From contig NZ_OY764327.1 of the NCBI RefSeq assembly GCF_963668385.1, forward strand, positions 4,374,501-4,438,500: a stretch of 64,000 nt of DNA, given 5' to 3'. Below, in pieces: positions 38,730-54,540 of this stretch (within the stretch, counting starts at the first letter, position 1; every line of letters starts with the position of its first letter). This DNA is from an uncultured Carboxylicivirga sp. Lineage in GTDB: Bacteria; Bacteroidota; Bacteroidia; Bacteroidales; Marinilabiliaceae. Under the pieces are notes generated by a model that saw only the letters and a program-made list of their open reading frames with translations, searched no databases and had not been told where the DNA came from. The translations under genes and the position numbers were made by a program.

Positions 38730-38839
38730 CAACTTTAAAGAAATTTTGCCATATTTTATAGGGTTTTTCAAAAAAAAACTATTTTTACGGGCATTGAAAC
38801 GAATCAAGTCTATAAAATAAAGATTAAAAAATTATTATT

Positions 38840-39478
38840 ATGAGGTATTTAGCAACTTTATCCTTTTTGATGTTGATGTTTGTTGGAGCTATGGCTCAGG
38901 ACAAAAGTGCTGCAGAGCTGAAAAATGAAGGAAATGATGCTCTTAAAGCAAAAGATTATAAAACAGCATTAAGCTCCTACGAACAAGCTATCGCATCATG
39001 GGGAGATGAAGAAATGGACGCTGCCATGGTATATAATACTGCTACATGTGCACGTAAAATTAAAGATTATGAGAAGACTATAAAGTATTTAAATCAATGT
39101 ATTGACCTTGATTATAAAGCTGATATTTCTACCTATTATATTGCTACTTCTTACGATAAATTAGAACAAGAAGATAAAATGGTAGAGGTACTTACTGGAG
39201 GTATTGAAAAATACAGCACAAGTAAGTATGTCGGTCACATGAAAAAAATGTTGGCTACTTACTATGTAAAACAAAGTAATGCATTGTATTCTGAAGGTCA
39301 AACTATTTTGAATACCCGTACTGCTGATAATAACGATCAGTGGGATGCTATTAAAGAAAAAGCAAAAGTTGTATTTGACAAGGCCGCTGATTTTGCAAAT
39401 AAAGCATTAGAAGTTCAACCTACAAATGCAAATGCTAAAACAATTCTTGCTGGTATTGAAACAATGTTGGCTAGCTAG
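38840..39478 (+). CDS. Exported TPR protein
   Basis: The 212-residue protein has a signal peptide (MRYLATLSFLMLMFVGAMAQ) and TPR units: AAELKNEGNDALKAKDYKTA, AAMVYNTATCARKIKDYEKT, DISTYYIATSYDKLEQEDKM and a C-terminal NKALEVQPTNANAKT. It probably acts as a periplasmic scaffold; no enzyme motif is present. It is monocistronic between thrC and hrpB, with its own terminator. Confidence 0.8.
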   Translation: MRYLATLSFLMLMFVGAMAQDKSAAELKNEGNDALKAKDYKTALSSYEQAIASWGDEEMDAAMVYNTATCARKIKDYEKTIKYLNQCIDLDYKADISTYYIATSYDKLEQEDKMVEVLTGGIEKYSTSKYVGHMKKMLATYYVKQSNALYSEGQTILNTRTADNNDQWDAIKEKAKVVFDKAADFANKALEVQPTNANAKTILAGIETMLAS

Positions 39479-39501
39479 TTAAAGTCTTCAAAAAATATTA
39501 T

Positions 39502-39532
39502 AAAGCGTCTGTTTCTGCAGACGCTTTTTTTG
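39502..39532 (+). terminator. Terminator after the TPR protein gene
   Basis: A 10-bp stem (AAAGCGTCTG at 39502-39511, CAGACGCTTT at 39518-39527) has a 6-base loop and a run of seven T. Confidence 0.88.
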
Positions 39533-39557
39533 TGTCTAAAAACTTAAGTATTTGCTT

Positions 39558-39565
39558 TATCTTTG
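39558..39565 (+). promoter_or_regulatory. Promoter -7 element of hrpB
   Basis: TATCTTTG matches TAnnTTTG exactly. The predicted transcript starts near 39572, giving a leader of about 24 bases before the TTG start at 39596, which supports that start. Confidence 0.6.
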
Positions 39566-39595
39566 CACCCTTGCTAAAATAAAAATAGTACAAAT

Positions 39596-42088
39596 TTGAA
39601 TTTCGATACATCACATATAGATTTACCTATTGTAGAGGTTGTACCTGAAATAAGGGAACAATTAGTAACTGATAATCGGTTAATTATACATGCACCTCCG
39701 GGAACAGGAAAGAGTACGATAGTTCCTCTTGCTTTACTCAATGAACCATGGTTGGCTCAAAAGAAAATTATTGTATTGGAACCAAGGAGGTTGGCTGCTC
39801 GAAGTATTGCATCTCGAATGTCAGATTTAGTAGGTGAAAAGGTAGGAAAGACTGTAGGATATCGTATTCGTTTTGATAATGTAATTAGTGATAGTACGCG
39901 AATAGAAGTTGTTACAGAAGGAATTCTTACTCGTATGCTTCAAAGCGATAATGCTCTCGAAGATGTTGGATTGGTAATATTTGATGAGTTCCATGAACGT
40001 AATTTATTTGGCGACCTGGCATTGGCTCTTTCTTTGGAATCTCAGCAGGTACTAAGGAATGATTTACGCATTATTGTTATGTCGGCAACATTAGATGTGA
40101 CTAATCTATCGCAGTTGTTGAATAGTAAGGTGGTTCAAAGTGATGGAAGGCAGTTTCCCGTAGAGATTAAGTATACCGGCGACTCTGATATGTATATGAT
40201 TCCTGAGCTTACAGCAAGAATTGTATCGAAAGTATTGAATGAAGAGGAAGGTGATATTTTGGTGTTTCTTCCGGGTGAAGGTGAAATCAGAAAATGTGAA
40301 TCTTTACTAAACGGAAAGGTTGGGAATACGCAGATTCATCCATTGTATGGGCAGTTGAATTCATCGAAACAATATGCTGCTATTATGCCGGATAAGCAAG
40401 GAAGGCGAAAAATAGTTTTAGCTACGTCAATAGCCGAAACCAGTTTAACCATTGAAGGTGTAAAGGTTGTTGTTGACTCTGGTTTCGGGCGCACTATGCG
40501 TTTCGATAGCCGATCTGGCTTATCTCGATTAGAAACGATTGAGATAACGAAAGATTCGGCAGATCAGCGGGCGGGACGTGCTGGTCGATTAGGGGCTGGT
40601 GTTTGTTATCGAATGTGGACTAATGCTAGTCATCATCAAAAGATAGAACATCAAACACCTGAAATTGAAGATGCAGATTTAGCATCGTTAATGCTCGATA
40701 TTGCTAAATGGGGTGTTAATGACATAGAATCGCTGCATTGGTTAACCTTACCACCTAAAGGTCATGTGCGGCAAGCAAAAAATGTACTTCATCAGATAAA
40801 TGCGTTAGATAATGGTAATATTACAGAGCATGGTAAGCAGTTAAGTAAAATTCCTTGTCATCCGCGAATAGCGCATATGTTATTGAAAGCCGAAGATGAA
40901 GGTTTAAGTTCTTTGGCTGTTGATGTAGCAGCTGTTCTGGAAGAACGTGATCCATTAGGCAAAGAAGCAGGAATAGATATTAATTTAAGAATTGAAGCTT
41001 TACGCAGGTATAGAAGTGGAAATCTTAAGAGCAATAAACTAAAGCGAATTGAGCAAATTTCATCTCAATACAGAAAAATGCTGAATTGTGAGGTGGATAA
41101 TAGCGATTTTGATCCATTTGAGACAGGGTTGCTGTTAGCTTTTACCTATCCTGAGCGTATTGCTCATTGTAAACCAGGTAATAATGCCCAATTTAAATTA
41201 GCCAATGGTAGAATAGCAGCTGCAGGTCATCAGGACGATTTAGCCCACGAAGAATGGTTAGCTATAGCTAATTTAAATGCTTCGGATGGGGTTGGACGCA
41301 TTTTTTTAGCGTCCCCGTTAAATCCACGTGATTTGATTTCGATGGTTAAAAATGTAGATCGGGTTAGCTGGAACACAAAAGAGGGCGGTTTTAAAGCCGT
41401 TAACGAATTACGTATTGGTAATATTGTACTTCAGAGTAAGCCATTAATGGATTATGATGAAAATTCGAAGATTGAAGCTATCTGTAATGCAATCAAAAAG
41501 GAAGGGATAAGTTTACTTGATTTTAATAAAGAGGTGGTTCAATGGCAAAATAGGGTATTAAGTCTTCGTTTATGGAATCGAGATCAAGGCTGGCCAGATG
41601 TTTCGGATAATGAGTTAATCGATACTTGTGAACAGTGGTTAGCTCCATATTTGAATACGGTTAAAAGGCCGGAAGACCTCAAAAAGATTAATCTAAAAGA
41701 CGTACTTCAGCATTATTTGCCGTATGAGCTTCAGCAACAGTTAGATATTTTGGCACCAGAACGTATAGAGGTACCAAGTGGATCTAAAATTAAGATACAA
41801 TATTCAGAGAATGGGGATAAGCCTGTTTTACCAGTTCGATTGCAGGAAGTGTTTGGGATGTTAGAAACTCCATCGATCAATAATGGAAAAAATAGTATGT
41901 TGATGCATCTTTTGTCGCCTGGTTTTAAACCTGTACAAATAACAGGTGATTTAAAGAGTTTTTGGAACAATGCTTACTTCGAGGTAAGAAAAGAACTTAG
42001 GGCACGTTATCCAAAACACGAATGGCCTGAAAATCCATTGGAAGCAAAGGCTATTAAAGGAGTTAAGAAAAAGATACAGAAACACTAA
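39596..42088 (+). CDS. hrpB: ATP-dependent RNA helicase HrpB
   Basis: The 830-residue DEAH-box helicase has Walker A PPGTGKST (34-41), VIFDEFHERN (motif II), MSATLD (motif III), ATSIAETSLTIEGV and QRAGRAGR (motif VI). The HrpB-type C-terminal domain follows to the end. The frame has no ATG before the Walker A motif, so translation must begin at the TTG at 39596, 24 bases after a predicted transcription start. HrpB is thought to be an RNA helicase; its role is not well defined. Confidence 0.92.
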   Translation: MNFDTSHIDLPIVEVVPEIREQLVTDNRLIIHAPPGTGKSTIVPLALLNEPWLAQKKIIVLEPRRLAARSIASRMSDLVGEKVGKTVGYRIRFDNVISDSTRIEVVTEGILTRMLQSDNALEDVGLVIFDEFHERNLFGDLALALSLESQQVLRNDLRIIVMSATLDVTNLSQLLNSKVVQSDGRQFPVEIKYTGDSDMYMIPELTARIVSKVLNEEEGDILVFLPGEGEIRKCESLLNGKVGNTQIHPLYGQLNSSKQYAAIMPDKQGRRKIVLATSIAETSLTIEGVKVVVDSGFGRTMRFDSRSGLSRLETIEITKDSADQRAGRAGRLGAGVCYRMWTNASHHQKIEHQTPEIEDADLASLMLDIAKWGVNDIESLHWLTLPPKGHVRQAKNVLHQINALDNGNITEHGKQLSKIPCHPRIAHMLLKAEDEGLSSLAVDVAAVLEERDPLGKEAGIDINLRIEALRRYRSGNLKSNKLKRIEQISSQYRKMLNCEVDNSDFDPFETGLLLAFTYPERIAHCKPGNNAQFKLANGRIAAAGHQDDLAHEEWLAIANLNASDGVGRIFLASPLNPRDLISMVKNVDRVSWNTKEGGFKAVNELRIGNIVLQSKPLMDYDENSKIEAICNAIKKEGISLLDFNKEVVQWQNRVLSLRLWNRDQGWPDVSDNELIDTCEQWLAPYLNTVKRPEDLKKINLKDVLQHYLPYELQQQLDILAPERIEVPSGSKIKIQYSENGDKPVLPVRLQEVFGMLETPSINNGKNSMLMHLLSPGFKPVQITGDLKSFWNNAYFEVRKELRARYPKHEWPENPLEAKAIKGVKKKIQKH

Positions 42089-42415
42089 GTATCAATGCGA
42101 ATCAACAGTTGAATCTACTTTGGGGTTTCTTTATAATACGTTCATATTCCCCGTGTTCCAACCGTGGCTATTCATATTAAATCCTTTCAGTATTTGAAAA
42201 TGTCCGAAAGGCATTTTCAATAATAGCCTCATACAGAGCCGGGCTAACTATTCGACTAATGATACAAGCCCGAAAGTGGGTTGAACGTTGCTATAAAAAC
42301 AATTTGAACTATTGATACGCATTATCAGTAAAAAAGTGTTCCGTGATAAATAAGGCGCAGGTGGGATGTAAAATAATGTACTATCATAAAAGGCAGACAT
42401 ATAGCGCTTTAACTA
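42089..42415. other. Non-coding stretch after hrpB
   Basis: No supported gene and no clear terminator. Base composition is less AT-rich than the neighbouring intergenic DNA, which fits decayed coding sequence, but I cannot identify a source. Confidence 0.4.
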
Positions 42416-42619
42416 TTGCGTACTCTACCTGATGCGGAAACTTCTTCAAATGCGAGGAAATTGCAATGTAAAAGAGCGAAAAGAAGAATTGGTTACATGT
42501 ATTCAATTGAAGAGCTGAGTAAACTAATGCATAAATACAAAATAGTAGTTCAATGTGCGGGCCCTTATTTTGCTGCTAATCCTGAAATAATACAGCCACT
42601 GAATATTTTGATACAATGA
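42416..42619 (+). pseudogene. Possible fragment of a saccharopine dehydrogenase-like gene
   Basis: A 67-codon frame contains YSIEELSKLMHKYKIVVQCAG followed by PYF (split here), resembling the end of the Rossmann domain of saccharopine dehydrogenase-like proteins, where a strand of V/I residues leads into CAGP. The first 25 codons look unrelated, and nothing continues the domain after ATTTTGATACAATGA. I read it as a decayed remnant. The assignment rests on one short motif. Confidence 0.25.
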
Positions 42620-42778
42620 AATAATAGGAAAGGAAAATCCGCAAGCACTGTTAGTTTAAATTTATAGTGAGTAAGATTATGTACGTATTAATTATAACAC
42701 ATAGTCTTTGAAATAAATGATTCAGACTAATTTTCACACCATTGACAGGTGGTTTTAAATATGCAAATTATTAGAATA

Positions 42779-42813
42779 GAAAGCAGCTTATGAATCAACG
42801 ATAAACTGCTTTC
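42779..42813 (-). terminator. Stem-loop at the end of the seven-gene operon
   Basis: An 8-bp stem (GAAAGCAG at 42779-42786, CTGCTTTC at 42806-42813) lies 15 bases beyond the last stop codon of the minus-strand operon. The U-tract on the minus strand is weak; on the plus strand GTTTTTA follows. Confidence 0.5.
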
Positions 42814-42827
42814 GTTTTTATATAACT

Positions 42828-44447
42828 TTAAGGGATTTTTTTCATCTGCTGGTTTTCAATTAGTTCACCTGATACACCTAGACAATAAGTGCACGAATTC
42901 AATACCTCTGATGAATTTAAAAAGTTCAGTGCTTTTGTTTTAAAGTCGCTGTCATTTATGGCTATGCTGTCCTGTTCTGAAAGTTTTTCCATTCCATTTT
43001 TGTCTGTATGCAAATAATCGTCAATATATGCAGCACGCGTACATTTGAAAAAGCGATTGTTCCGAACCATTAAACAACGGTGTCGCATCCAACAATCGTT
43101 GTAAATTTGCTGAATTTCTTCTTTGTCAGTTAGTGTTTCTTTGGCAAAAATAGTGTTAAACTGATCCACTGATTTTATATTGTAAATAACACCATGTTTT
43201 TTTGCAAGTTGCTTAATGTGTTCAATGTTATTTTTACTAACCGGTGCACTTCTGTAGTTCGAAATCCAGATTTGATCGATGTGTTGAAAAATATCCTCAT
43301 TTAGCTTTTTCGCCAGTAAACCATTACTTGTAATGCGCAATAAGGTTTTTGGGAAATAAGACTTTACCTTTTTAACAATCAAATCAATGTCTGGATGAAG
43401 TAGGGGTTCGCCTCCTGAGAGTTTAATTACCTCCGGATTAATATGATTTTTAAGAAAAATGCAAATCAGCTCTATTTCATCAAGGCTCATAAATTTTGGC
43501 TGGTTAAATGGAGATATGTTACAGCATTCCACACATTTTAAATTGCAATGTTCACTTAAATGAAATTCGAATGATTCTGTCTGTATTCTATTTTGTTCGA
43601 TTTTATACTTCTTTTCAGTTGCAGAAACATCACCTTTTTTTATAAAAACAGGTTCCAGTTCTACCAATAGCTCTTTTCGGCAAATATTGCGCTGTTGGTA
43701 GTTGATTGTGCATTGAGCCGAAAGAAACTTGGGAATAAGCTTTTGTAATAAATCTAAATCGCTTGTATTCCGGTAATATACAATGATGTGTTGAATATCT
43801 TCGACTGCAAAACCGTATTCAATACCATATTGCTTTAAGTTAAACTGACTACCTAAAATTCTCAGGTTTTCAATGGTGTTATATACCTGATCGTATATGT
43901 CGTTTGTAAATTGCGAATCTTCACCCTTAATACTGGCTGTACCTGAAGCAAATAGTTTAATCTGATTGTTTTCTTCTATGATGCAAGCCCGGCTAAATAC
44001 AGGAGGGTATTTTCCATACTTTTCGGAGTATTGATGCGCTGGAATCTGACATTTATTTTCGATGACTTTCAGAATGTGATTGGAGGCCTTAAATGATATT
44101 TCGATACAATTATCGCTGCTACCAATAGCCGAAGCTGCAGGAATATGCCACTGGTTTGTGTGGTTTCCAAAATGTTTTTGATAGGCAAGAAAACGCCCTT
44201 TGTTAAATTTTTCGTAAACGGGTTCACCACTTGGTAAAATAGTATTAATTGCCGGCACAAAGTGACGGATAAAGCTAATTTTTAAATTTGATTTATTAAT
44301 GGTTTCAAAAATAGCATCATAAAGGGCAAGTGTAATTGTATCAATATTACTTAAGTCGTTTACCTTATATTTTACATTTCCTTCCAAATAGGAGCTTTCT
44401 TTTACGGTATGTATTTCAACGTTTATTTTTTCTGAAATTTCCATCAT
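42828..44447 (-). CDS. Chorismatase-like domain fused to radical SAM domain
   Basis: The 539-residue protein has two parts. Residues 1-270 match the FkbO/Hyg5/XanB2 chorismatase family: IPAASAIGS, VIENKCQIPAHQYSEKYG, PPVFSRA, FASGTASIKGEDS and ICRKELLVELE near 264, the region that holds the catalytic glutamate in that family. These enzymes turn chorismate into 3-hydroxybenzoate or dihydroxycyclohexadiene carboxylate. Residues 290-539 are a radical SAM domain with CNLKCVEC (about 299-306), LSGGEPLLHPD, and a later cysteine set (CWMRHRC, KCTRAAY, CTYC) like a SPASM or twitch cluster. The known GHxS position reads GEDS here. It is the last gene of the operon, 5 bases after the deacetylase gene. 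Product unknown. Confidence 0.85.
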   Translation of the reverse strand: MMEISEKINVEIHTVKESSYLEGNVKYKVNDLSNIDTITLALYDAIFETINKSNLKISFIRHFVPAINTILPSGEPVYEKFNKGRFLAYQKHFGNHTNQWHIPAASAIGSSDNCIEISFKASNHILKVIENKCQIPAHQYSEKYGKYPPVFSRACIIEENNQIKLFASGTASIKGEDSQFTNDIYDQVYNTIENLRILGSQFNLKQYGIEYGFAVEDIQHIIVYYRNTSDLDLLQKLIPKFLSAQCTINYQQRNICRKELLVELEPVFIKKGDVSATEKKYKIEQNRIQTESFEFHLSEHCNLKCVECCNISPFNQPKFMSLDEIELICIFLKNHINPEVIKLSGGEPLLHPDIDLIVKKVKSYFPKTLLRITSNGLLAKKLNEDIFQHIDQIWISNYRSAPVSKNNIEHIKQLAKKHGVIYNIKSVDQFNTIFAKETLTDKEEIQQIYNDCWMRHRCLMVRNNRFFKCTRAAYIDDYLHTDKNGMEKLSEQDSIAINDSDFKTKALNFLNSSEVLNSCTYCLGVSGELIENQQMKKIP

Positions 44448-44452
44448 CTTCG

Positions 44453-45274
44453 TTAATTGGGTATTAGTTTATAGTTGACTTCAAATTTTAACTGACGTAT
44501 GTTCTGTTCGTCAATAAGGATATCAAACTCAGTTTGATAACAACGCAGGGCATTTAATTTGCTTTCACAATCATATTCGTTGAAATACTTGATTGCTTTA
44601 AAGGAGGGGTTAGGGCCTGGTTGATGAAGCTTTTCGAATTCTCGTTTGTAGTTACTTTCACTCTCAAGTTCGTCCATGTCATTTATAAAGTAGTTGCTTA
44701 CAAAAGCCAAATGTTGTTCTTTTAAACGGGTAAAGGGACTATTCGAGTATTCATGCTCAATATTACATTGTTGTTTTCGAATGTTACTCCAGTTTTGTAC
44801 CTGATTATAGGGAGCATCCTCATAAAAATAACACTCACACACCTGATTTTTCAGTATGTTTTTACCTGCATAAAAAGCAAGGTTATGGTCAATGTGTCCG
44901 CCAATACCTAAAGGAAAATAGCATTGATTAAAGCCTTTGGGTTTAATCAATGCTGCGATTTTTTTTGTAATATCCTGCAAAAGGACATGATCTGTTGGCG
45001 GTGTATGATGATACAATAAGCTAGCAAATGAATAATATTTCTGCGAGCGAAATGGAGCATCTACAAAATCAAAATGAAGGTAAGAAGCTCCAAGTTGTTT
45101 CACAGCCTTTGCATCATCGTTTTTTCTTATCAGATGGTTACTTTTTTCATCACCGGCACTAAATATTGTAGCAATAGTAACCTGGTTGCCATTACTAATT
45201 TGTTGTGCTATTGTGGCGCCGCAGCTCAATATGACATCGTCAAGATGGGGTGATATATACAAAATTTTATGCAT
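44453..45274 (-). CDS. PIG-L (LmbE-like) family N-deacetylase
   Basis: I place the start at 45274 (MHKILYISPHLDDVILSCG), where the family begins; a longer frame upstream lies inside the previous gene. The 273-residue protein has the zinc motif PHLDDVILSCG and the second ligand motif GGHIDHNLAF. Family members remove acetyl groups from GlcNAc-linked compounds, as in mycothiol, bacillithiol and teicoplanin pathways. The start overlaps the glycosyltransferase gene by 8 bases. A glycosyltransferase followed by a deacetylase suggests that the operon adds and then deacetylates an N-acetyl sugar. Confidence 0.87.
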   Translation of the reverse strand: MHKILYISPHLDDVILSCGATIAQQISNGNQVTIATIFSAGDEKSNHLIRKNDDAKAVKQLGASYLHFDFVDAPFRSQKYYSFASLLYHHTPPTDHVLLQDITKKIAALIKPKGFNQCYFPLGIGGHIDHNLAFYAGKNILKNQVCECYFYEDAPYNQVQNWSNIRKQQCNIEHEYSNSPFTRLKEQHLAFVSNYFINDMDELESESNYKREFEKLHQPGPNPSFKAIKYFNEYDCESKLNALRCYQTEFDILIDEQNIRQLKFEVNYKLIPN

Positions 45275-46517
45275 AGTATAGCGAAGGCATAATGGGTTGA
45301 TGATTGAATAGTACTTTTTGAATGAGTTCTGCAGCTTGTTTAGCTCCTCCATATCGGTCAAAAGATTGTTTTACTCGTTTTACATTTTTCTGATATGGGT
45401 TGTTGGTTTCAATTAGCTTTCTTATTTCTGTTCTGTAAGTATTTACATCCGGAAGAAAAGCATCCAGAACTATTCCTGTTTTAGCCCGTTGAATAAATTT
45501 TGCTTGTATAAATTGATCGTTACACAATGGCAGTAGTGCAATCGGAATACCTTTTGACATGCATTCGAGTACTGAATTTGCACCTCCATGACTAATCATG
45601 ATATCAATATGATCTAAAACTTGTAGTTGAGGGACATAGGGGAGTATAATGGCATCTTTAGGAAATTCATTGGCAAATCCTTCGTTGTATAATTCACTTA
45701 CTGATAAAATCAATTGTACATTCTCATTTTCCAATGCTTTTGCAACGGTTTTAAATAATTCGGGGTAGTAATAGACCTGACTTCCCAACGACATATATAC
45801 TTTTGTTTTTGATTTATCGAGTTTGTCGAAAGGAAATAGGGTTTCGTCACCCCGATTATTGTTTGCCGGAAATGGAGTGCCTACGTAAAACGAAAAATTA
45901 TTTTCGCTTAACTCCCGGGGAATATATTCTTCGGTAGAAAACACAATATTCAGCCATGGCGAAATTGCATCACTCACTGAAAATTGAATGTCGGGTTTTG
46001 TGTCAGCAAATAATTTAAGTCTTTGTGAGTGATATTTGTTTAAGGTTTCAACCAAATCACAACTCCATTCTGCTGGGGTTATCGGGTTCAAAGAATTAGA
46101 TACTCCAACCCAAGGGATTTGTTCTTTCTCGGCTACAATAGCTGCAGCATAAACCATTGGGTCTGTTACAATAATCGAAGGATTAAATGAGGCAACCGCA
46201 TTAGCTATACCTTCAATATGTTGTGGTACTACGTCAATGAGTAACGTTTTAACCCATTTTTCGAGCCATGTTTTGTCTTGTATTTTTTTTGCAAATTCTG
46301 CTCCTTTGGTAATAAAATCAGAAGGTATATTGGCTTTATCTGTTGGCGTAAAGCACGTGCAATCAATTTGAGCATTTTTAAGTTGAGCCGATACATCCGC
46401 CTGTGCAAAAAAAGCAATTTCAATTCCGAGTTGTTGTATATGCTGGGCAATTCCAATGAGTGGATTAAGATGTCCTTTCTCAGGAATGGTAATGAATAAT
46501 ATTCTTTTATTTTCCAC
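45267..46517 (-). CDS. GT1-family glycosyltransferase (MGT/UGT type)
   Basis: The 416-residue GT-B enzyme begins KRILFITIPEKGHLNPLIG, with the GHLNP acceptor-site motif. It has the donor-site signature ISHGGANSVLECMSKGIPIA followed by LPLCNDQF, typical of macrolide and natural-product glycosyltransferases such as OleD and YjiC. It uses a nucleotide-activated sugar; donor and acceptor are unknown. It lies 6 bases after the AsnB-like gene and overlaps the deacetylase gene by 8 bases. Confidence 0.9.
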   Translation of the reverse strand: MENKRILFITIPEKGHLNPLIGIAQHIQQLGIEIAFFAQADVSAQLKNAQIDCTCFTPTDKANIPSDFITKGAEFAKKIQDKTWLEKWVKTLLIDVVPQHIEGIANAVASFNPSIIVTDPMVYAAAIVAEKEQIPWVGVSNSLNPITPAEWSCDLVETLNKYHSQRLKLFADTKPDIQFSVSDAISPWLNIVFSTEEYIPRELSENNFSFYVGTPFPANNNRGDETLFPFDKLDKSKTKVYMSLGSQVYYYPELFKTVAKALENENVQLILSVSELYNEGFANEFPKDAIILPYVPQLQVLDHIDIMISHGGANSVLECMSKGIPIALLPLCNDQFIQAKFIQRAKTGIVLDAFLPDVNTYRTEIRKLIETNNPYQKNVKRVKQSFDRYGGAKQAAELIQKVLFNHQPIMPSLYYA

Positions 46518-46523
46518 GGTGGT

Positions 46524-48308
46524 TTAGTTTAGATGGTATTTTTTACCCCAATAAATGGCTGCTATGCAACTAAAAATCATCATGCGTTTCTGCTCAGTCA
46601 TATGTTTGTCGTGAGCTAGTTTATTCAGGTATTGGGTGTTGAAGTATTGTTCGCAAAAAGGATTTTTTTCTTGCAAAAGGTTAACTAATATTTGCTGATA
46701 GGCCCTTGCTAATCGTGGATCGCGTGGTAATGCCGATTTTTTTCGCAAACGTATCTCATCAATGAGTGTTCCTTTAGCAGCTTCCCTTACGACGTATTTT
46801 TCAATGTTATTTTTAAATCCAAGCGAAGGGTGAATTGTTTTACTAATCTGATATAAGTTTTGGTTTGCAAAGGGAACTCTGCCCTCCAAACTACTATTCA
46901 TGGTATGGATATCGCCGTTATGTAAAAGTCTTCCGAGCCAAAGTTTTGTTATTAATGTGGTGGTTGCCAAAATTCTTTCCTCTTTTCCTTTGTCAAAATG
47001 GTAACCTGCAGTTTGTGCAATATTTTCATATTTGTGATACAAATAATCTTTAATACCTGTTTGTTTTACAAATGCTGGATTTAAAATATTCAGTCGCTCA
47101 TTTCCACCAAACAGGTTACTAATGGCTAAAGGCGAGGTGTTGTATTGCTTATTTAACAAGAAAAAATAACCGTAATTCATTTCATCTGCAGCGTCGCCAA
47201 CCATTACCGCTTTTACATCTTTGGAAGCCTTCTGCGCCAAAAAATGTTGTGATATTTCTTGTTCCCATACACTTATGCGATCGTTATTTGTAACAATTTG
47301 TTCTATTTCATTTAGAATCATGTCTTGCGAAATATTTACCTCCTTGTGATTGAGTCGATATTTTTTAATCATCAAATCTGTAAATGGTTTGTCATTTGAG
47401 CAAACAATCGTGTCGGGAGAGAATTCTATTTTATCATGATTGTCAAATACAATTCCATAGGTTTTTAAGGTACTGTTTTGTCTTTGTGCCTGAGCTGCGA
47501 TATACGAAGAATCTAAGCCACCGCTTAAAAAACAACCTATTTCAACATCTGAATGCAATGAATACGATATACTTCTTTCAAATTCATTTCTAAAAGTGGT
47601 GATGATGTGTTTTTCATCCCCAAGAGCAGGGTTTATATGCGTTAATGCATAATTTGTTTCCACAATTCCATCCTGATTGACTTGCAGATAAGTACCAGCC
47701 TGTAGTATGGCTATTTGATTAAAGAGACTATCCGTAACTCCGCTTAAAGATGGCGAAATAATGGTTTCGGCCAAGGAATACGGATTTATATCTAAACTGT
47801 TTGAAAGTACAGACGCCAGTGTTTTTACTTCAGATGCAAAGGTGAATTCGCCATTAATATAACTGTATACAAATGGTTTTACACCTAGTAAATCTCTGGC
47901 TGCAAATGCTGTTTGAGTTTCTGTATCCCATATTAAAAAGGAAAACATGCCAATAAAGCGATGTACGCATTGTGTTCCCCAATTAATATAAGCAGCTAAA
48001 ACAATTTCTGTATCGCTATTTGTCTTAAATGAATAACTTGTATGTAGTTCATCTTTAAGTTGCTGATGGTTATACAATTCTCCGTTGTAAGTGAGAATAT
48101 ACCTTCCGTTATTACTTTTGAATGGTTGCTGTCCATTTTTTATATCAATAATCGAAAGTCGTTGATGACACAATCCATGATTTTCTCCCGTCCATATATT
48201 TTGTTCGTCGGGTCCTCTATGGAGCTGTAGTTGTTCCATATTCAAAAGGATCTGACGAATATGTTTTTGAGATTTATTCGAAAATAATACTCCTCCAATT
48301 CCGCACAT
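46524..48308 (-). CDS. AsnB-like glutamine-dependent amidotransferase
   Basis: The 594-residue protein has an intact class II glutaminase domain starting MCGIGGVLFS (Cys2 is the nucleophile) with YNGELYNHQQL, and the ATP-pyrophosphatase domain with SGGLDSSYIAAQ. It then carries the SLEGRVPFANQNLYQ and IRLRKKSALPRDPR segments of the synthetase domain. It resembles asparagine synthase, but members in biosynthetic operons often amidate or ligate other carboxylates. Its place in this operon, rather than alone, favours such a role. It follows the nucleotidyltransferase gene after 4 bases. Confidence 0.88.
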   Translation of the reverse strand: MCGIGGVLFSNKSQKHIRQILLNMEQLQLHRGPDEQNIWTGENHGLCHQRLSIIDIKNGQQPFKSNNGRYILTYNGELYNHQQLKDELHTSYSFKTNSDTEIVLAAYINWGTQCVHRFIGMFSFLIWDTETQTAFAARDLLGVKPFVYSYINGEFTFASEVKTLASVLSNSLDINPYSLAETIISPSLSGVTDSLFNQIAILQAGTYLQVNQDGIVETNYALTHINPALGDEKHIITTFRNEFERSISYSLHSDVEIGCFLSGGLDSSYIAAQAQRQNSTLKTYGIVFDNHDKIEFSPDTIVCSNDKPFTDLMIKKYRLNHKEVNISQDMILNEIEQIVTNNDRISVWEQEISQHFLAQKASKDVKAVMVGDAADEMNYGYFFLLNKQYNTSPLAISNLFGGNERLNILNPAFVKQTGIKDYLYHKYENIAQTAGYHFDKGKEERILATTTLITKLWLGRLLHNGDIHTMNSSLEGRVPFANQNLYQISKTIHPSLGFKNNIEKYVVREAAKGTLIDEIRLRKKSALPRDPRLARAYQQILVNLLQEKNPFCEQYFNTQYLNKLAHDKHMTEQKRMMIFSCIAAIYWGKKYHLN

Positions 48309-48312
48309 AGGA

Positions 48313-49203
48313 TTATTTCTTATATAGTTTAATTATTCGTTGATCAATATTTAGTCGCTTCATTTCTGCGTATGTTTCTGAAGGAATAAGATTCTTTATA
48401 CATTCATTATTTGCCATACTTTGTCTGAGTGTTGTTCCTCTTGTTTCTGTATTTATTGTGGGTATTTCCACCTGAATATTTTCGTGTTGAGCCATTTCAA
48501 TCGCAGAAGGATTTGTACTGAAAAAAACATTAAAGTGAGGAAGCAAAAGCTTTATTTCTTTAAAATTTTCGGCTGTAAACGGATTGTAAGCCATTGGAAT
48601 AATCCAATAACGATTGGGATAATTGATTTCTAAATAGGCCTTGATCATGCTCATTCTTTCACCTGCCGTTGCTGGATTTGCCAAATTGAATGATTTATCG
48701 GCGCATGCAATAATAAAAATCGCTTCATCATATTCACTTAAAATGGATGTAATAAACTCCTTATGTCCATTGTGAAATGGTTGAGCCCTAGAAACAAACA
48801 GAGCTCGTGTTTTGTGGTGCTTAATTTTTAGAGGTAGTTCATTACAAGCGATTAATTTTACAGGAACATGATAAACTAAAGGAGCGTAGTTTATGAACAA
48901 TTTGCTATTCGAAAGAAGAATAGCAAAATCAGGGCAATAGTGACCTAAACGCATAATTAGCTGCATGGTGTCCATATTCTGTTTATGTATAGGAAACAGA
49001 TAAACGGGCTTGGCAACCATACGTTCCATACTGTTTTTAATCTGTATTAGAATATCCCCAGGTTTTTGTTTGTTCTCTACACAAAACTGAAAAGTTTCCC
49101 ATATCAGTACCACAATAAATTCATCATAAACCTCACTTAGCTTTTTTATTTCTGCCGGATTGGGTATGACAGGTGTATTAAGAAGTAGTAAAGCTCGTTT
49201 CAT
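48313..49203 (-). CDS. Two-lobed nucleotidyltransferase, first lobe degenerate
   Basis: I place the start at 49203, where ATGA overlaps the kinase gene stop; another ATG lies three codons upstream. Residues about 130-285 are an adenylyltransferase/cytidylyltransferase (NadM-like) domain with VSRAQPFHNGHKEF (HxGH near 142-146) and RGTTLRQSM. Residues 1-130 repeat the same strand-helix order (RALLLLNTPVIPNPAEIKKL against RALFVSRAQPFHNGHKEFI; YDEFIVVLIW against YDEAIFIIAC) but lack HxGH. It is probably an inactive lobe from an internal duplication. The substrate is unknown, and neighbouring kinase activity suggests a phosphorylated metabolite. Confidence 0.82.
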   Translation of the reverse strand: MKRALLLLNTPVIPNPAEIKKLSEVYDEFIVVLIWETFQFCVENKQKPGDILIQIKNSMERMVAKPVYLFPIHKQNMDTMQLIMRLGHYCPDFAILLSNSKLFINYAPLVYHVPVKLIACNELPLKIKHHKTRALFVSRAQPFHNGHKEFITSILSEYDEAIFIIACADKSFNLANPATAGERMSMIKAYLEINYPNRYWIIPMAYNPFTAENFKEIKLLLPHFNVFFSTNPSAIEMAQHENIQVEIPTINTETRGTTLRQSMANNECIKNLIPSETYAEMKRLNIDQRIIKLYKK

Positions 49204-50225
49204 AGCTGACATTCTTTTACATTGTAGATATTTACAGTGTTAAAACAGGATAAAAATCCTATTCCTTCGGCTAGTTTCCAGATGCCGTTTATTGCATTTT
49301 TAATGTAGAGCAGGGACTGTTGTAGTGCAAAAAAACACAACCACTGCTCATAAGCTATTTCTTTTTCAAGTGTATACCATTTGCTAGAACCAAAGTAAAG
49401 ATTCACAAATGCATCAAATGCTGGTTTATCAATATCAAGCAAGGAATCCGATTTTCCCTTTTTACATATTCTGAATGCTGATAGGATGGCATCTATTTCT
49501 TCGTATCCATATTGGGTATGCTCAAAGTCTATAATACCACAGATATTATTGTCTTTAAAAAGAATGTTTTCCAATTGAAAATCCTCATGTATATATTGCA
49601 TTTTTAACTTAGGAATGATTGACTTTAGATCTGTAAGTATCCGAAATGCATTCGTGGAAAAAGATTGTATGTCAGCTTGGTTTAACTGTTGTATTCCTTT
49701 TAAACAATCCCAGTTTGTTTCATTTGCTTGGTTAAGTATTTCGGTATAGTTATTCAGGTAACAATTGGTAATACTTGATGCAGATATAGTTTGTAATTTG
49801 CAATTAAGGTCCTTGTACTTTAAAACGATACGCTTTAAATCGTCAACATTGGGAATGTCGTGCCATTGATATTTTGTAGCTCCCTCAATGTAATGAAACA
49901 AGTGTATTGCATAGGTTTTATCAATATGTATTTGGCAATGCATTGTGTTGCTTATAGTGCGTATAATTTGTGGTGTGTTCGTTGTGTTTTGCAATGAATC
50001 AAGTTTCTCTAACACAATTTCTTCTTGCCTGATAGCAGAGGATGTTTTTGAGAAATGTGAAACCCGAAGAATGAATTTTCCTGTTGTAGTTTTAATCTGA
50101 TAAAGTAAATTGGAAAAACCGCTTTCTATTCTTTCATAAGTTAAACACGTAACGCCATATTCTAATTGTAGTATATGGATTATTTTCTTCTCAAAAGGAA
50201 TTGATAACTGTATTTGCCAAGTCAT
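49200..50225 (-). CDS. APH/choline kinase-type small-molecule phosphotransferase
   Basis: The 341-residue kinase-like protein has an N-terminal lobe with ESGFSNLLYQIKTTTGKF, the catalytic loop YIHEDFQLENILF (Asp and Asn) and the metal motif GIIDFEHTQYG. It belongs to the aminoglycoside phosphotransferase superfamily, which also holds homoserine kinase II, choline kinase and sugar kinases. Its place between a regulator and a nucleotidyltransferase suggests it phosphorylates the intermediate that the next enzyme activates. The start shares one base with the upstream stop (TAATG) and its own stop overlaps the next start (ATGA). Confidence 0.85.
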   Translation of the reverse strand: MTWQIQLSIPFEKKIIHILQLEYGVTCLTYERIESGFSNLLYQIKTTTGKFILRVSHFSKTSSAIRQEEIVLEKLDSLQNTTNTPQIIRTISNTMHCQIHIDKTYAIHLFHYIEGATKYQWHDIPNVDDLKRIVLKYKDLNCKLQTISASSITNCYLNNYTEILNQANETNWDCLKGIQQLNQADIQSFSTNAFRILTDLKSIIPKLKMQYIHEDFQLENILFKDNNICGIIDFEHTQYGYEEIDAILSAFRICKKGKSDSLLDIDKPAFDAFVNLYFGSSKWYTLEKEIAYEQWLCFFALQQSLLYIKNAINGIWKLAEGIGFLSCFNTVNIYNVKECQL

Positions 50226-50944
50226 TATATTTCAAAATTAAATCCATGGCTTTTAAGTGCCTGATATTTTTTTTTATCAAAACGGAATTGTCTAGCACTT
50301 TTGTGGGCAATTCCTTCTATTTTCTTTTCAACTGGTTCAAGTATGCCTAATTTCAAAAATTTACGGTTAAAGTTTCGCCTGTCTATCTGTATCCCTAATA
50401 TTGCTTCATAAAGTCTTAAAAGCTGAGGGATGGTAAATACTTCTTCAAGAAGTTCAAATCCAATAGGTTCATATTTTATTTTGCCTTTTAGTCGATCATG
50501 AGCTACTCTTAAAATTCTATCATGATCAAATGCTAAGGAAGGAACCTGATCAATAGGAAACCATTTGGCGTCACTGGCATCATCTCCACCAATTAAATTG
50601 AAAGCAGTCGATTTAATTAATGCGAAATAGGAAACAGTAATAACTCTTCCCCGAGGATCACGACTGACATCACTAAATGTATACAACTGTTCTAAGAATA
50701 AATTTTCTACACCTGTTTCTTCTGCTAATTCACGACGAGCACATTCTTCAGTTGTTTCATCCATTTTAACAAATCCTCCAGGTAATGCCCATTGATCTTT
50801 AAATGGTTCTATACCACGTTCTACCAGAAGAATGTTAAGTTCAAAGCCGTCGAAACCAAAGATTACACAGTCAGTAGTGACTGATGGTCTTGGGTACTCG
50901 TAACAATATGTTTGCTTACTTTTAGTGTTTATTATTCGTGTCAT
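50225..50944 (-). CDS. NUDIX-domain transcriptional regulator, NrtR/AraR-like
   Basis: The 239-residue protein joins a NUDIX domain (about 20-150) to a C-terminal winged helix (about 160-230, including FTIPQLLRLYEAILG and DRRNFNRKFLKLGIL). The Nudix box is complete (GGFVKMDETTEECARRELAE then ETGV, about residues 57-80), so hydrolase activity may be retained, unlike many NrtR members. Family regulators repress and are released by ADP-ribose or sugar-related ligands. It is the first gene of the operon, and two palindromes flank its start; control of the whole operon is inferred. Confidence 0.88.
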   Translation of the reverse strand: MTRIINTKSKQTYCYEYPRPSVTTDCVIFGFDGFELNILLVERGIEPFKDQWALPGGFVKMDETTEECARRELAEETGVENLFLEQLYTFSDVSRDPRGRVITVSYFALIKSTAFNLIGGDDASDAKWFPIDQVPSLAFDHDRILRVAHDRLKGKIKYEPIGFELLEEVFTIPQLLRLYEAILGIQIDRRNFNRKFLKLGILEPVEKKIEGIAHKSARQFRFDKKKYQALKSHGFNFEI

Positions 50945-51008
50945 TGTGACGCGAAAATAGGAATATTTTTTAATTTACAACAAATTTTACGTGTATAATT
51001 GACACGAA
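50936..51008 (-). promoter_or_regulatory. Candidate operator pair and promoter for the seven-gene operon
   Basis: Palindrome 1 (TCGTGTCA-N3-TGACGCGA at 50936-50954) overlaps the regulator start codon. Palindrome 2 (CGTGT-N7-ACACG at 50990-51006) lies 54 bases upstream. Both share the CGTGTCA half-site with T/A flanks. On the minus strand a promoter could lie between them: TTG at 50978-50980 and TATTTTCG at 50952-50959. The arrangement suits autorepression. Confidence 0.55.
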
Positions 51009-51048
51009 AAAATATTTCTCATTATTGCTCTATATTCTCAACTCACTT

Positions 51049-51338
51049 ATGCTATTTGGTAAAACTAATTCAAAAGGGTACCAATTTAAATATCAAAAGG
51101 GTTTATTCTATTTAGTTAATCCTAAAGGAAAGATAGTTAAATATAGCCGTTTTCATTCTCAAGTAAGTTTAGCGAAAGACTTGCCACTTGTAGAAAAAAA
51201 TTTAAGTGTGGATACATCGTAATTAATTATCAATTCTATGATGCAGATCCATTTAGTAAGGGTAGTGCTTATATGTCGAAATACGGTAAATATGAATACA
51301 TCAATAAAAGAGGTTACGTACATGACAAAATCAATTAA
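51049..51338 (+). pseudogene. Frameshifted WG-repeat-like small gene
   Basis: The first part, from ATG at 51049, reads KGYQFKYQKGLFYLVNPKGK and stops at 51222. In the frame one base back, the sequence continues CGYIVINYQFYDADPFSKG and then GKYEYINKRGYVHD, ending at TAA 51336-51338. Both parts have the G-K-F/Y-x-x-I/V-N-x-x-G pattern of WG repeats. The break falls at a run of seven A (51194-51200), so a one-base slip or sequencing error would explain it. Confidence 0.5.
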
Positions 51339-51872
51339 ATGATAGGTATCCTTATTTAAACCATGAATTACAGTGTTATACATGTGGATTTTACCTTGTT
51401 TTGCACTGAATCCTAATACACAGATAGGAAGTAAAATACTCAATTATCTTAGTTATTCAAGACAAGGATCAGTTGGAATAAAGCAAGGATTAAATACTTG
51501 CTTATTAAATAAATAGCATGATAAAATTTCAGCCCCTTTCATATGTAAAACTTGTACCGTATTTTACACTAATTTTTAGTGCATAATTCAACCCCGTAAT
51601 TTTTCTAATTGTTTCATATTGTGCCCGTATTTGTACCTCGTATTTATCCAATCTAATTGTGATATAAAAAGTGATCAAACTTGTACTAAAGTGGAAATGT
51701 ACAATGTGGACGTAATGCCTATTAACACCAGAAACTTTTAATTAATTAGTAATGGTTTGTCATTTGTTTGCCCTACCTATTTGCCATCTAATATTATTTT
51801 GAGTGTTTTATCTAGTAATAAGATTTTGTATTTTTAACAATATCCCTAATACCAAACTTAATACTGACGATT
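51339..51872. other. Non-coding region upstream of the DUF481 gene
   Basis: Several stop-rich fragments and AT-rich DNA are present; no gene, RNA or clear hairpin is supported. The first 150 bases may be further remains of the WG-repeat gene. The last 100 bases must hold the promoter of the next gene, but no exact TAnnTTTG was found. Confidence 0.5.
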
Positions 51873-52883
51873 ATGAGAACCTTAATCTTATTTGCTTTTT
51901 CTGTATTTATTCTTCTTCCTATTTGCTCAGCCCAGGTTGATTCTGTGCGATTTTCCAATGGCCAATTAATAATTGGTGAAATCAAATCGATGGAAAGAGG
52001 TGTTCTTGTTGTCGAAACTGATTATAGTGATAGCGATTTCGAAATAGAATGGAAAAAAGTTGTATGGCTTCGAACAAAAACTAATTTTATGGTTGATCTT
52101 GAAAATGGAGAGGAATATTTTAGTAATATCAACTCTGTGAATGATTCGTTATGCCAGGTAATTAATCCAATGGGACTCGAAACTTACTTTAAACCATCTG
52201 AGGTGGTTAATCTTAAATCATATGAGGATTCTTTTAAAGATCGGTTCAGTGCTTTTATTGATTTATCTTACGAAATGGCAAAGGCTAAAAGTTTGAAGCG
52301 TTTTACAACAAGAAGTGGATTAGGTTATCAGGCTGAAAAATGGAATTCTAACTTTACAATAAGTTCCTTGTTGACAAGTCAGGAAGATGCAGAAGATATA
52401 CAGCGAACAGAAAGTGAATTGAATACCAGATATGTGATGAAAAACTGGTACTCGATTGTAACTATTAGTACACTGTCGAATAGCGAACAGCAGTTGAATC
52501 TTCGTTTAAATACACAATTGGGGATGGCGCGATATCTGCATCGGACGAACAAGACCTATTGGGGTATTGTATTGGGAGCTAACCGTAATGTTGAGAAATA
52601 TTACGAATCTACTTCTGATAGACAAACGTGGGAAGGATATTTTACAATGGAGCTAAATCTATATGATGTAGAAGATTTTAGTCTTCTGTTTAGTTCTTCT
52701 CTCTATAGTGGTATCACCGAAAAAGGTCGTTGGCGTTCTGATACTAAACTTGATATCAAATACGATCTTCCATTGGATTTTTACATTAAATTTGGAGCCA
52801 CATTAAACTATGATAATCGTCCAATTGAAGGTGTTTCAACTACCGATTATATTTTACAGTCTGGTATTGGTTGGGAGTGGTAA
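51873..52883 (+). CDS. DUF481-type outer-membrane protein
   Basis: The 336-residue protein has a signal peptide (MRTLILFAFSVFILLPICSA). Residues 22-120 are a small beta-rich domain (VRFSNGQLIIGEIKSMERG). Residues 120-336 match the DUF481/YdiY barrel pattern, with FIDLSYEMAKAKSLKRFTTR, LGMARYLHRTNKTYWGIVLG and a C-terminal strand ending GIGWEW. Function unknown; it is probably an outer-membrane beta-barrel. It converges with the MFS gene, with one base between stops. Confidence 0.75.
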   Translation: MRTLILFAFSVFILLPICSAQVDSVRFSNGQLIIGEIKSMERGVLVVETDYSDSDFEIEWKKVVWLRTKTNFMVDLENGEEYFSNINSVNDSLCQVINPMGLETYFKPSEVVNLKSYEDSFKDRFSAFIDLSYEMAKAKSLKRFTTRSGLGYQAEKWNSNFTISSLLTSQEDAEDIQRTESELNTRYVMKNWYSIVTISTLSNSEQQLNLRLNTQLGMARYLHRTNKTYWGIVLGANRNVEKYYESTSDRQTWEGYFTMELNLYDVEDFSLLFSSSLYSGITEKGRWRSDTKLDIKYDLPLDFYIKFGATLNYDNRPIEGVSTTDYILQSGIGWEW

Positions 52884-52884
52884 T

Positions 52885-54249
52885 TTAATGTAGTTTACCT
52901 CTGTTAAATGAAAAGTATATACCGCTTAAGCATAACAATGAAAAGATCAAAAAGGAAACTTTGATCCCTTTTAAAAAGGTATTAATATCAATACTTTCTA
53001 TTGAGTTTTTGTTGAAGAGTACCGAAAATAAGGCAGTAGCAATTGTCATACTTAATATTTGACCTAAAACACGCATTGTGGCCGAAATACCACTTGCCAT
53101 ACCTGCCTTTTCTTTATTTACCGAACTCATTATTGTATTCATATTTGGAGAAGAAAAGAGTGCAAATCCTAATCCAATAAAAGCCAGATCAGCGACAATG
53201 AAATAAACAGAAGTATTGGTATCGAGGGAGGTAAATAAACCAAGACCAATTCCACAAATCAGCATGCCCACTGAAGCCAGATAGCCAGGTTCATATTTGT
53301 CAGACAGTTTACCAAAAAAAGGTGATAAAATTGCCATTACAATGGGTTGAGCTATTAGTATACTACCGGCTGTGCGAGGATTAAAATGAAGTGCTTTTTG
53401 AAGATAAAGACTTAGTAAGAACACAATTGCAAAAGTAGCACTATAATTGATTAAGGCCGCAAAATTTGAATAAGCAAATAAACGGTTGATCCTAAACTCT
53501 TTTACGGGAAAAAATGCAATGGTTGAGTTCCTTTGTTGCCAAACAAACATAATCATTAATAAGCATCCACCTAACAAAATGAATTGCCCAATAAGCATTT
53601 TTATTACAGATGAACCATAAACCATTGCAGATAGAGCAATGGCATACATAATGGCTCCTTTGTAATCTAAAGCCGAGGTGTTGGTTTTAAACTCATCTTT
53701 TCCTAAATATGTTACAGCTACAAACATCACTAAAAGCCCGATAATGGATGATATCAAGAATATGGCTTGCCAACCCAAGTAAAAGGTTATAAAACCACCG
53801 GCACTAGGGCCAATAGCTAATCCTATGTACACGGCTGCGACCGTTATTCCAAGTACTGATCCTCTTCTGTTGATTGGAAATTCACGAACCAAAATAGCAG
53901 GACCTGTTGCCATCAATAGAGATGCTCCTATACCTTGAAGAAATCGCAACAATATTAAGATTAAACCATTAGTAGCAAATGAACATAGGAGGGTGAATAT
54001 CAGAAAAAAAACAGTTCCTACTTTAAAAACTTTTTTATGACCAATGAAATCAGCCCATCTACCTGCTGGCAAAAGAAAAATACCTGATGATAAGAGAAAT
54101 GAGGTAATAATCCAGCTCAAAGAAATAGCATTGAGATGTAGTTGTTTTTCGATGATGGGTAAGGCAACATTAACCGAAGAGATCAAAAAAGGTCCCATAA
54201 AAGAAGTAAGAACAGTAACCAACAAAACCGATCTTTGAGCTTTTGTCAT
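52885..54249 (-). CDS. MFS drug/proton antiporter, DHA2-like
   Basis: The 454-residue inner-membrane protein has about 14 hydrophobic helices. Motif A-like LPAGRWADFIGHKKVF follows helix 2, RFLQGIGASLLMATGPAILV is the antiporter motif in helix 4-5, and AIGPSAGGFITFYLGWQAIF is the motif C region. These features fit the DHA2 (EmrB/QacA) group of multidrug exporters. No membrane-fusion partner or regulator lies beside it. Substrate unknown. Confidence 0.88.
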   Translation of the reverse strand: MTKAQRSVLLVTVLTSFMGPFLISSVNVALPIIEKQLHLNAISLSWIITSFLLSSGIFLLPAGRWADFIGHKKVFKVGTVFFLIFTLLCSFATNGLILILLRFLQGIGASLLMATGPAILVREFPINRRGSVLGITVAAVYIGLAIGPSAGGFITFYLGWQAIFLISSIIGLLVMFVAVTYLGKDEFKTNTSALDYKGAIMYAIALSAMVYGSSVIKMLIGQFILLGGCLLMIMFVWQQRNSTIAFFPVKEFRINRLFAYSNFAALINYSATFAIVFLLSLYLQKALHFNPRTAGSILIAQPIVMAILSPFFGKLSDKYEPGYLASVGMLICGIGLGLFTSLDTNTSVYFIVADLAFIGLGFALFSSPNMNTIMSSVNKEKAGMASGISATMRVLGQILSMTIATALFSVLFNKNSIESIDINTFLKGIKVSFLIFSLLCLSGIYFSFNRGKLH

Positions 54250-54415
54250 TGTGATAAATCCTTAATCAATCATATGAAGTTATAAAATTGCAAAGTATAC
54301 AAATAAAACGTCTTTATTGTCTGCATACCTTAAAATAAGGTATTTAATTACGGGAGATAATCTTAGTGTAAATGTACTTATATGGTATTAATCTCATAGT
54401 AAAGTCATATTTAAT

Positions 54416-54473
54416 TCAAACTAAACTCAAATTAAATTCGATATTAATTGAATTTAATTTGAGTTTAGTTTGA
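54416..54473. repeat. 24-bp perfect inverted repeat
   Basis: The arm at 54416-54439 (beginning TCAAACTAAACTCAAATTAA) is exactly complementary to 54450-54473, with a 10-base loop. It lies 68 bases downstream of the ahpF stop codon (minus strand) and may act as its terminator, although neither strand carries a U-tract after it. Confidence 0.7.
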
Positions 54474-54540
54474 GAGTAGTATAGATTAACTATGGTTCAA
54501 ATACAATACAAATACGTATCGTAGGTGTTTAAAGTATACT

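Follow-up and report, generated by a model that had tools for sequence, protein, structure and literature searches.

Which compound could be assembled by a gene set that brings together a chorismatase, a radical SAM enzyme, an amidotransferase, a glycosyltransferase and a deacetylase? The question is raised by seven adjoining minus-strand genes of an uncultured Carboxylicivirga sp., located within a 64,000-nucleotide (nt) stretch of contig NZ_OY764327.1 (positions 4,374,501 to 4,438,500) that we analysed as a whole and refer to as the window; all coordinates below are positions in it. The original prediction, made from the letters of this DNA, had described these genes as an uncharacterised seven-gene biosynthetic operon. 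All seven open reading frames (ORFs), running from 50944 to 42828, were confirmed, with no gap exceeding 6 bases, and the family calls were backed by Pfam and NCBIfam, several NCBIfam cut-offs being missed by the operon proteins despite this family support.

A six-gene unit shared with Filimonas zeae

Transcription would start with a NUDIX regulator bearing an NrtR winged helix and an intact Nudix box (50225..50944; PF00293 and PF21906 over cut-off). Behind it come an APH-fold kinase (49200..50225; PF01636, 64 bits), a tandem NadM-like adenylyltransferase with a degenerate N-terminal and an intact C-terminal copy (48313..49212; NCBIfam, hhalign and a structure model), an AsnB-like glutamine-dependent amidotransferase (46524..48308; TIGR01536, 377.7 bits against a cut-off of 267.1), a GT1 glycosyltransferase of the macrolide/YjiC kind (45267..46517; PF00201, 58.3 bits), a PIG-L type N-deacetylase (PF02585, 48.1 bits) and, lastly, a chorismatase (residues ~11-267) fused to a twitch radical SAM domain (~281-539), encoded at 42828..44447, with PF21168 and Radical_SAM over the Pfam cut-offs. 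In this order the inter-gene distances are -1, -13, 4, 6, -95 (as called) and 5 bases. Because homology of the PIG-L protein starts at its Met30, which corresponds to the start of the Filimonas protein described below, we prefer the ATG at 45274 to the called TTG at 45361, so that the gene occupies 44453..45274 and overlaps the GT1 gene by 8 bases.

A peptide pattern of the fusion protein was scanned against one genome per species from 84,980 species, a procedure that detects close relatives only. It found 28 stretches, one of which codes for a relative, in Filimonas zeae (Chitinophagaceae). At this locus (L021), all six enzyme genes are collinear with the window operon and equally oriented, with BLASTP identities of 26% for the APH-fold kinase, 26% for the nucleotidyltransferase, 45% for AsnB, 51% for GT1, 35% for PIG-L and 52% for the fusion. 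Since the distantly related Filimonas zeae keeps the six genes in identical order and orientation, their grouping is more than chance, and the conserved unit is that of kinase, nucleotidyltransferase, AsnB, GT1, PIG-L and chorismatase-radical SAM protein. No NUDIX match occurs within the 21.4-kb Filimonas locus, and a copy of the regulator 83% identical to that of the window heads a different gene set in another genome of the genus; the proposed seven-gene operon thus stands as six enzymes conserved together, with the NUDIX gene outside the unit.

Elsewhere the unit is rare. A profile search with the fusion (E 1e-30) gave a single match in each of three overlapping sets, comprising 71 genomes of the family, 393 of the order and 395 of the phylum, and each time it was the window's own; the same held for the tandem NadM profile (E 1e-12) among 395 genomes of the class and for the GT1 profile (E 1e-45) among 395 of the phylum. 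No further carrier was found among viral contigs. Thirteen plasmid records match the fusion in part and none covers 80% of it, while 165 hold distant GT1 relatives (24-25% identity in the ten listed) and 3 archaeal ones carry NadM; in phages, the match is confined to a short part of the NadM domain (17 records). Scattered, unlinked genes in close relatives, which the original prediction had named as evidence against itself, were not encountered: the fusion was not found in the 13 other genomes of the genus, and the sole other carrier found is collinear.

The claim that no described pathway has this gene set likewise stood, as none was found in the open-licence literature, combined enzyme-class terms included. 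To our knowledge, neither this combination nor a chorismatase-radical SAM fusion belongs to a described pathway. Each enzyme comes from a known family and the combination is, as far as searched, new.

A proposed route to an adenylylated aryl aminosugar

For this unit we put forward, tentatively and as somewhat short of an even chance, a pathway of six enzymes, either mobile or patchily retained, leading to an adenylylated aryl aminosugar that would resemble nicotinamide adenine dinucleotide (NAD) in shape. The chorismatase half would convert chorismate into 3-hydroxybenzoate and pyruvate, AsnB would use glutamine-derived ammonia to convert the carboxylate to a primary amide, GT1 would place N-acetylglucosamine onto the phenol, and PIG-L would remove the acetyl group. 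The radical SAM half would then invert one sugar carbinol, Cys458 returning the hydrogen atom, before the APH-fold kinase phosphorylates a sugar hydroxyl and the NadM-like enzyme adenylylates the sugar phosphate. Relative to the glycosidic bond, the carboxamide would occupy the meta position, as it does in nicotinamide mononucleotide (NMN), with an adenosine diphosphate (ADP) bridge beyond, and the last enzyme of the pathway is related to the enzyme converting NMN into NAD. From the families and residues described below we infer every reaction and its place in the sequence, which sugar is used and where it is phosphorylated, and what the product does, be it as an intracellular antimetabolite, a signal or a cofactor analogue. 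The pairings of sugar transfer with N-deacetylation and of phosphorylation with nucleotidylation, both already suggested in the original prediction, remain natural readings of the gene set.

The end of the proposed route depends on the nucleotidyltransferase, whose family call could be sharpened to NadM-like. Its C-terminal half scores as NadM and its N-terminal half is a degenerate copy devoid of HxGH (hhalign probability 92.9, E 3.6e-7). When compared with four archaeal NadM proteins, R11, H16, H19, R55, T133 and R136 are kept in both operon proteins, that is, in the window and in Filimonas, while S39, N84 and W87, kept in 4/4 archaeal proteins, are changed in 2/2. Residues N84 and W87 of NadM are those which we take to hold nicotinamide. 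As the catalytic residues are kept and this presumed nicotinamide pocket is replaced, we read the protein as an active adenylyltransferase acting on a substrate other than NMN. It shares the HxGH domain and the catalytic residues with archaeal NadM (1ej2, 1f9a), and differs from it in the tandem degenerate copy, in the replaced S39/N84/W87 and in NCBIfam scores below cut-off. Two further positions were set aside: Arg47 of Mth NadM was dropped as a marker, being variable in the archaeal controls too, and D80 was left uncounted, as it is lost in the window and its position in Filimonas depends on the alignment. Plain NAD synthesis was also rejected, since the window's genome holds a NadD over cut-off and the operon enzyme has other residues in the presumed nicotinamide pocket. 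In the kinase, H213, D215, N220 and D233 are invariant in the window and Filimonas; a two-row profile of it retrieved no solved relative at E 0.001.

The same two enzymes could instead act before the glycosyltransferase. The kinase would then produce a sugar-1-phosphate and the HxGH enzyme an ADP-sugar, serving as donor for GT1 onto 3-hydroxybenzoate, after which PIG-L would deacetylate, the radical SAM half epimerise and AsnB amidate, giving an aryl aminosugar without adenosine monophosphate. That the kinase and nucleotidyltransferase genes overlap by 13 bases, that the nicotinamide pocket is replaced, and that HxGH enzymes such as HldE can make ADP-sugars are all in keeping with such a route. 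However, among the 11 NCBIfam matches of the protein NadM scores best and no HldE-type model appears (0/11), the fold match is to archaeal NMN adenylyltransferases, enzymes whose target is the phosphate on a nucleoside-like substrate, and uridine diphosphate N-acetylglucosamine is already available in peptidoglycan-making bacteria. We consider this main alternative possible, if rather unlikely. Should it hold, the genes would still encode a rare pathway, making hydroxybenzoate aminosugars and involving a radical SAM enzyme of the spectinomycin/hygromycin kind.

At the other end of the route, the chorismatase half exceeds the Pfam cut-off (PF21168, 38.6 against 27 bits) and falls under that of TIGR04444 (145.5 against 325). 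Its nearest solved chains, both by sequence and in a Foldseek search with the predicted model (mean pLDDT, the predicted local distance difference test, 76), are FkbO (4bps) and Hyg5 (5ag3/5a3k). In pairwise alignments, on which positions were counted by hand, G169 is aligned to Gly240 of Hyg5 (Ala244 in FkbO), C256 to Cys327 (Ala331 in FkbO) and E263 to Glu334. According to the work behind 5ag3, this Gly and Cys reportedly decide between Hyg5-type and FkbO-type reactions. Passages of two papers describe Glu-334 as catalytic and 3-hydroxybenzoate as the Hyg5-type product (PMC7170507), and distinguish three chorismatase types with products by type, cautioning that the reaction could not at that time be predicted from alignment alone (PMC3949708). 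We therefore predict a Hyg5-type enzyme yielding 3-hydroxybenzoate, which narrows the earlier claim of an aromatic or cyclohexadiene acid to the aromatic one favoured by these residues. With Hyg5-type chorismatases (5ag3/5a3k; Nat-hyg5), the window half shares fold, catalytic Glu and the aligned Gly and Cys; it differs in the fused radical SAM domain and in its sub-cut-off TIGR04444 score. An FkbO-like enzyme, delivering a dihydroxycyclohexadiene acid on whose ring, rather than on a sugar, the fused radical SAM domain would act, would agree with the highest BLAST-like scores being those against FkbO and with a fusion kept in both genomes, where one domain could pass its product to the other; it appears improbable, given the agreement with Hyg5 at the Gly and Cys positions. 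As a separate observation, a second chorismatase-like gene exists in the window's genome (G000:C1:1840244-1840789), and standalone relatives are found in many genomes of the family.

For the radical SAM half, described before simply as radical SAM, a SpeY/HygY-like twitch domain can now be specified. The nearest solved protein, by sequence and by Foldseek, is SpeY (7wzv), titled a twitch radical SAM dehydrogenase. The CxxxCxxC motif corresponds to C301/C305/C308 and the four auxiliary Cys to C452/C469/C519/C522, while C458 stands, across a two-residue gap, opposite Cys183 of a HygY-like protein, where SpeY has Ser. The comparison protein is encoded on a plasmid of Streptomyces sp. SAT1, ~9 kb or less from a predicted APH(7'') gene and with sugar genes adjoining, and it is from this gene context that we infer its HygY-like nature. 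We assume Cys183 to be the Cys mutated in HygY and to serve as hydrogen donor. The title of the HygY paper, given in the reference list of PMC10991966, states that mutation of one Cys reveals dehydrogenase activity, and a passage of PMC10991966 itself gives Cys249 as the hydrogen donor of NeoN. Because C458 matches the HygY-like Cys183, a position held by Ser in SpeY, an epimerase is the better guess than a dehydrogenase. The extra Cys is also present in two standalone twitch radical SAM proteins (L002:1423-2310 and L004:1402-2295, from two genomes of the family; 26-28% identical to the window domain), so that this residue is not special to one function. Relative to SpeY/HygY, the window domain thus shares CxxxCxxC, the four further Cys and the Cys opposite Cys183, but is fused to a chorismatase and has no 2-deoxystreptamine/aminocyclitol genes beside it.

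The intervening steps draw on PIG-L, GT1 and AsnB. In PIG-L, the metal motifs HLDD and HIDH are invariant in both genomes, and the nearest solved chains are Dbv21 (3dfi) and the teicoplanin deacetylase (2x9l), both of which act on an aminosugar attached to a phenol. Unlike with these pseudoaglycone deacetylases, the operon includes no glycopeptide genes. GT1 scores 145.1 bits with TIGR01426, below the cut-off of 260; in AsnB, the glutaminase Cys2 is invariant in both genomes and the nearest solved chain is a hydroxyamidotransferase (7ylz). That the aryl aminosugar might itself be an aminoglycoside-like antibiotic, with kinase and nucleotidyltransferase serving self-protection or resistance, is distinctly improbable: a PIG-L deacetylase and a SpeY/HygY-like radical SAM enzyme are typical of antibiotic pathways and the kinase has the APH fold, but the nucleotidyltransferase is NadM-like, its gene and that of the kinase accompany the pathway in both genomes, and the set includes neither an export gene nor a cyclitol enzyme.

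Among the seven operon genes, Pfam detected no transporter, aminocyclitol synthase or aminotransferase family, and in nine flanking Filimonas ORFs the only transport-related match was a TonB C-terminal domain; this lack of transporters suits a charged, intracellular product. Carried to its most specific form, the adenylylated product would be a dedicated NAD-shaped dinucleotide derived from chorismate rather than nicotinate, 3-carbamoylphenyl aminosugar-ADP, a redox-dead mimic acting as antimetabolite, signal or cofactor, which the NUDIX switch may sense and even cleave; we regard this particular form as unlikely. If true, it would represent a gene-encoded NAD mimic of shikimate-pathway origin, could serve as a starting point for inhibitors of NAD-using enzymes and would add a new type of NUDIX-regulator ligand, and with six compact genes the question is experimentally tractable.

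Several observations weigh against the proposed pathway. The NadM-like proteins do not reach NF002243 or TIGR01527 (126.3 against 127 and 111.9 against 181.2 bits in the window; 111.3 and 94.8 in Filimonas), and the model that placed archaeal NMN adenylyltransferases first in the structure search is weak (pLDDT 64; predicted template modelling score, pTM, 0.51). Co-occurrence is known from two carriers, between which conservation is lowest for the kinase and adenylyltransferase (26%), so that these two enzymes may act on different substrates in each genome. The identical pair of Gly and Cys recurs in all 16 standalone chorismatases read and may therefore also be compatible with the XanB2 type, which makes 4-hydroxybenzoate too. 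Lastly, the choice of N-acetylglucosamine as donor, suggested by PIG-L only, is a presumption, and the link between regulator and pathway is found in one genome only.

The NUDIX regulator and the borders of the island

In the proposed scheme the regulator would sense the product, its intact Nudix box suiting a nucleotide-linked ligand or substrate. The winged helix is over cut-off (PF21906, 70.3 against 27 bits), while the score with the NrtR ADP-ribose repressor model NF050029 (157.7 against 400) is below it. Thirty-nine NrtR-type matches were obtained in 14 genomes of the genus, and the box was compared in the 24 with loci read, besides the window's own: it is impaired in 23/24 and intact in the window regulator and one other (L049, the copy of genome G002). 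According to a passage of PMC4666351, active Nudix hydrolases conserve this box strictly and NrtR and AraR have it in impaired form. The window regulator thus shares Nudix domain and winged helix with these regulators but differs from them in its intact box.

The copy in G002 is the 83% identical one mentioned above. It heads a set (L055:7877-12899) in which the regulator, with intact box, is followed by an SPFH/Band-7 protein, a weakly NAD-kinase-like protein (24.9 bits, cut-off 304) and a methyltransferase of 708 amino acids; none of these three downstream proteins matches the window. DNA similarity between the two loci extends from window position 51015 to 50225 (74% over 797 columns), ending at the last base of the regulator gene. 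Upstream of the G002 regulator, on the opposite strand, lies a WG-repeat/TonB_C gene, a decayed remnant of whose counterpart was recognised in the window at 51022..51314 on the plus strand (two tblastn pieces, E 8e-8 and 2e-7). Because the similarity stops at the regulator end, the remnant lies upstream and the downstream G002 proteins have no match in the window, it seems that the regulator locus is the older one and that the six genes were placed behind it. The G002 copy, the Filimonas locus without NUDIX gene and the upstream remnant point to a separate history of the regulator, which corrects the original prediction.

Two 17-bp near-palindromes were noted as candidate operators, one across the regulator start codon (50937..50953) and the other 53 bp from it (50990..51006), each with a similar site before the G002 copy. 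With a motif derived from the two sites themselves and up to 2 mismatches, the window gave 4 matches on both strands, only at these sites, a number reached by 2/100 shuffles. With up to 1 mismatch, the genome gave 3 matches, all at the two sites, against 5 for the reversed-pattern control, so that the genome-wide count is not beyond chance. The candidates draw their support from standing as a pair at a spacing of 53 bp, with a similar pair, at 52 bp, in front of the G002 copy.

A role in anti-phage defence was considered and rejected, as the four pathway enzymes given to PADLOC (the fusion and GT1 left out) were without match; of the 7 proteins given in total, the 2 matching were the NUDIX regulator (PDC-S07, 33.3 bits) and the G002 methyltransferase (mad2, 37.7 bits).

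HrpB of the window, a helicase whose gene flanks the island, is present in 14/14 genomes of the genus; a search for it in the Filimonas genome gave no match, a weak negative by the search tool's own caution. We compared the HrpB region in 5 of the 13 other genomes of the genus. In G001, which HrpB (89%) marks as the nearest relative, the island (42067..51883, approximate ends) is absent between matching flank genes, those of HrpB and a DUF481 protein lying ~100 bases apart. This could reflect an insertion in the window genome or a loss in relatives. The island ends (42061-42400 and 51501-51900) share no direct match of 9 bases or more and one inverted match of 9; no RNA family was detected in 38000-56000 and no tRNA in the window. 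In three of the five regions compared, no window gene matched downstream of HrpB. The HrpB-MFS junction of G006 (L071) was the place where the DUF481 gene, flanking the island in the window and its counterpart in G001, gave no match. The MFS gene of the window (52885-54249) was rejected as a member of the system, since it is present without the island in both G001 and G006, in the latter 53 bases after HrpB.

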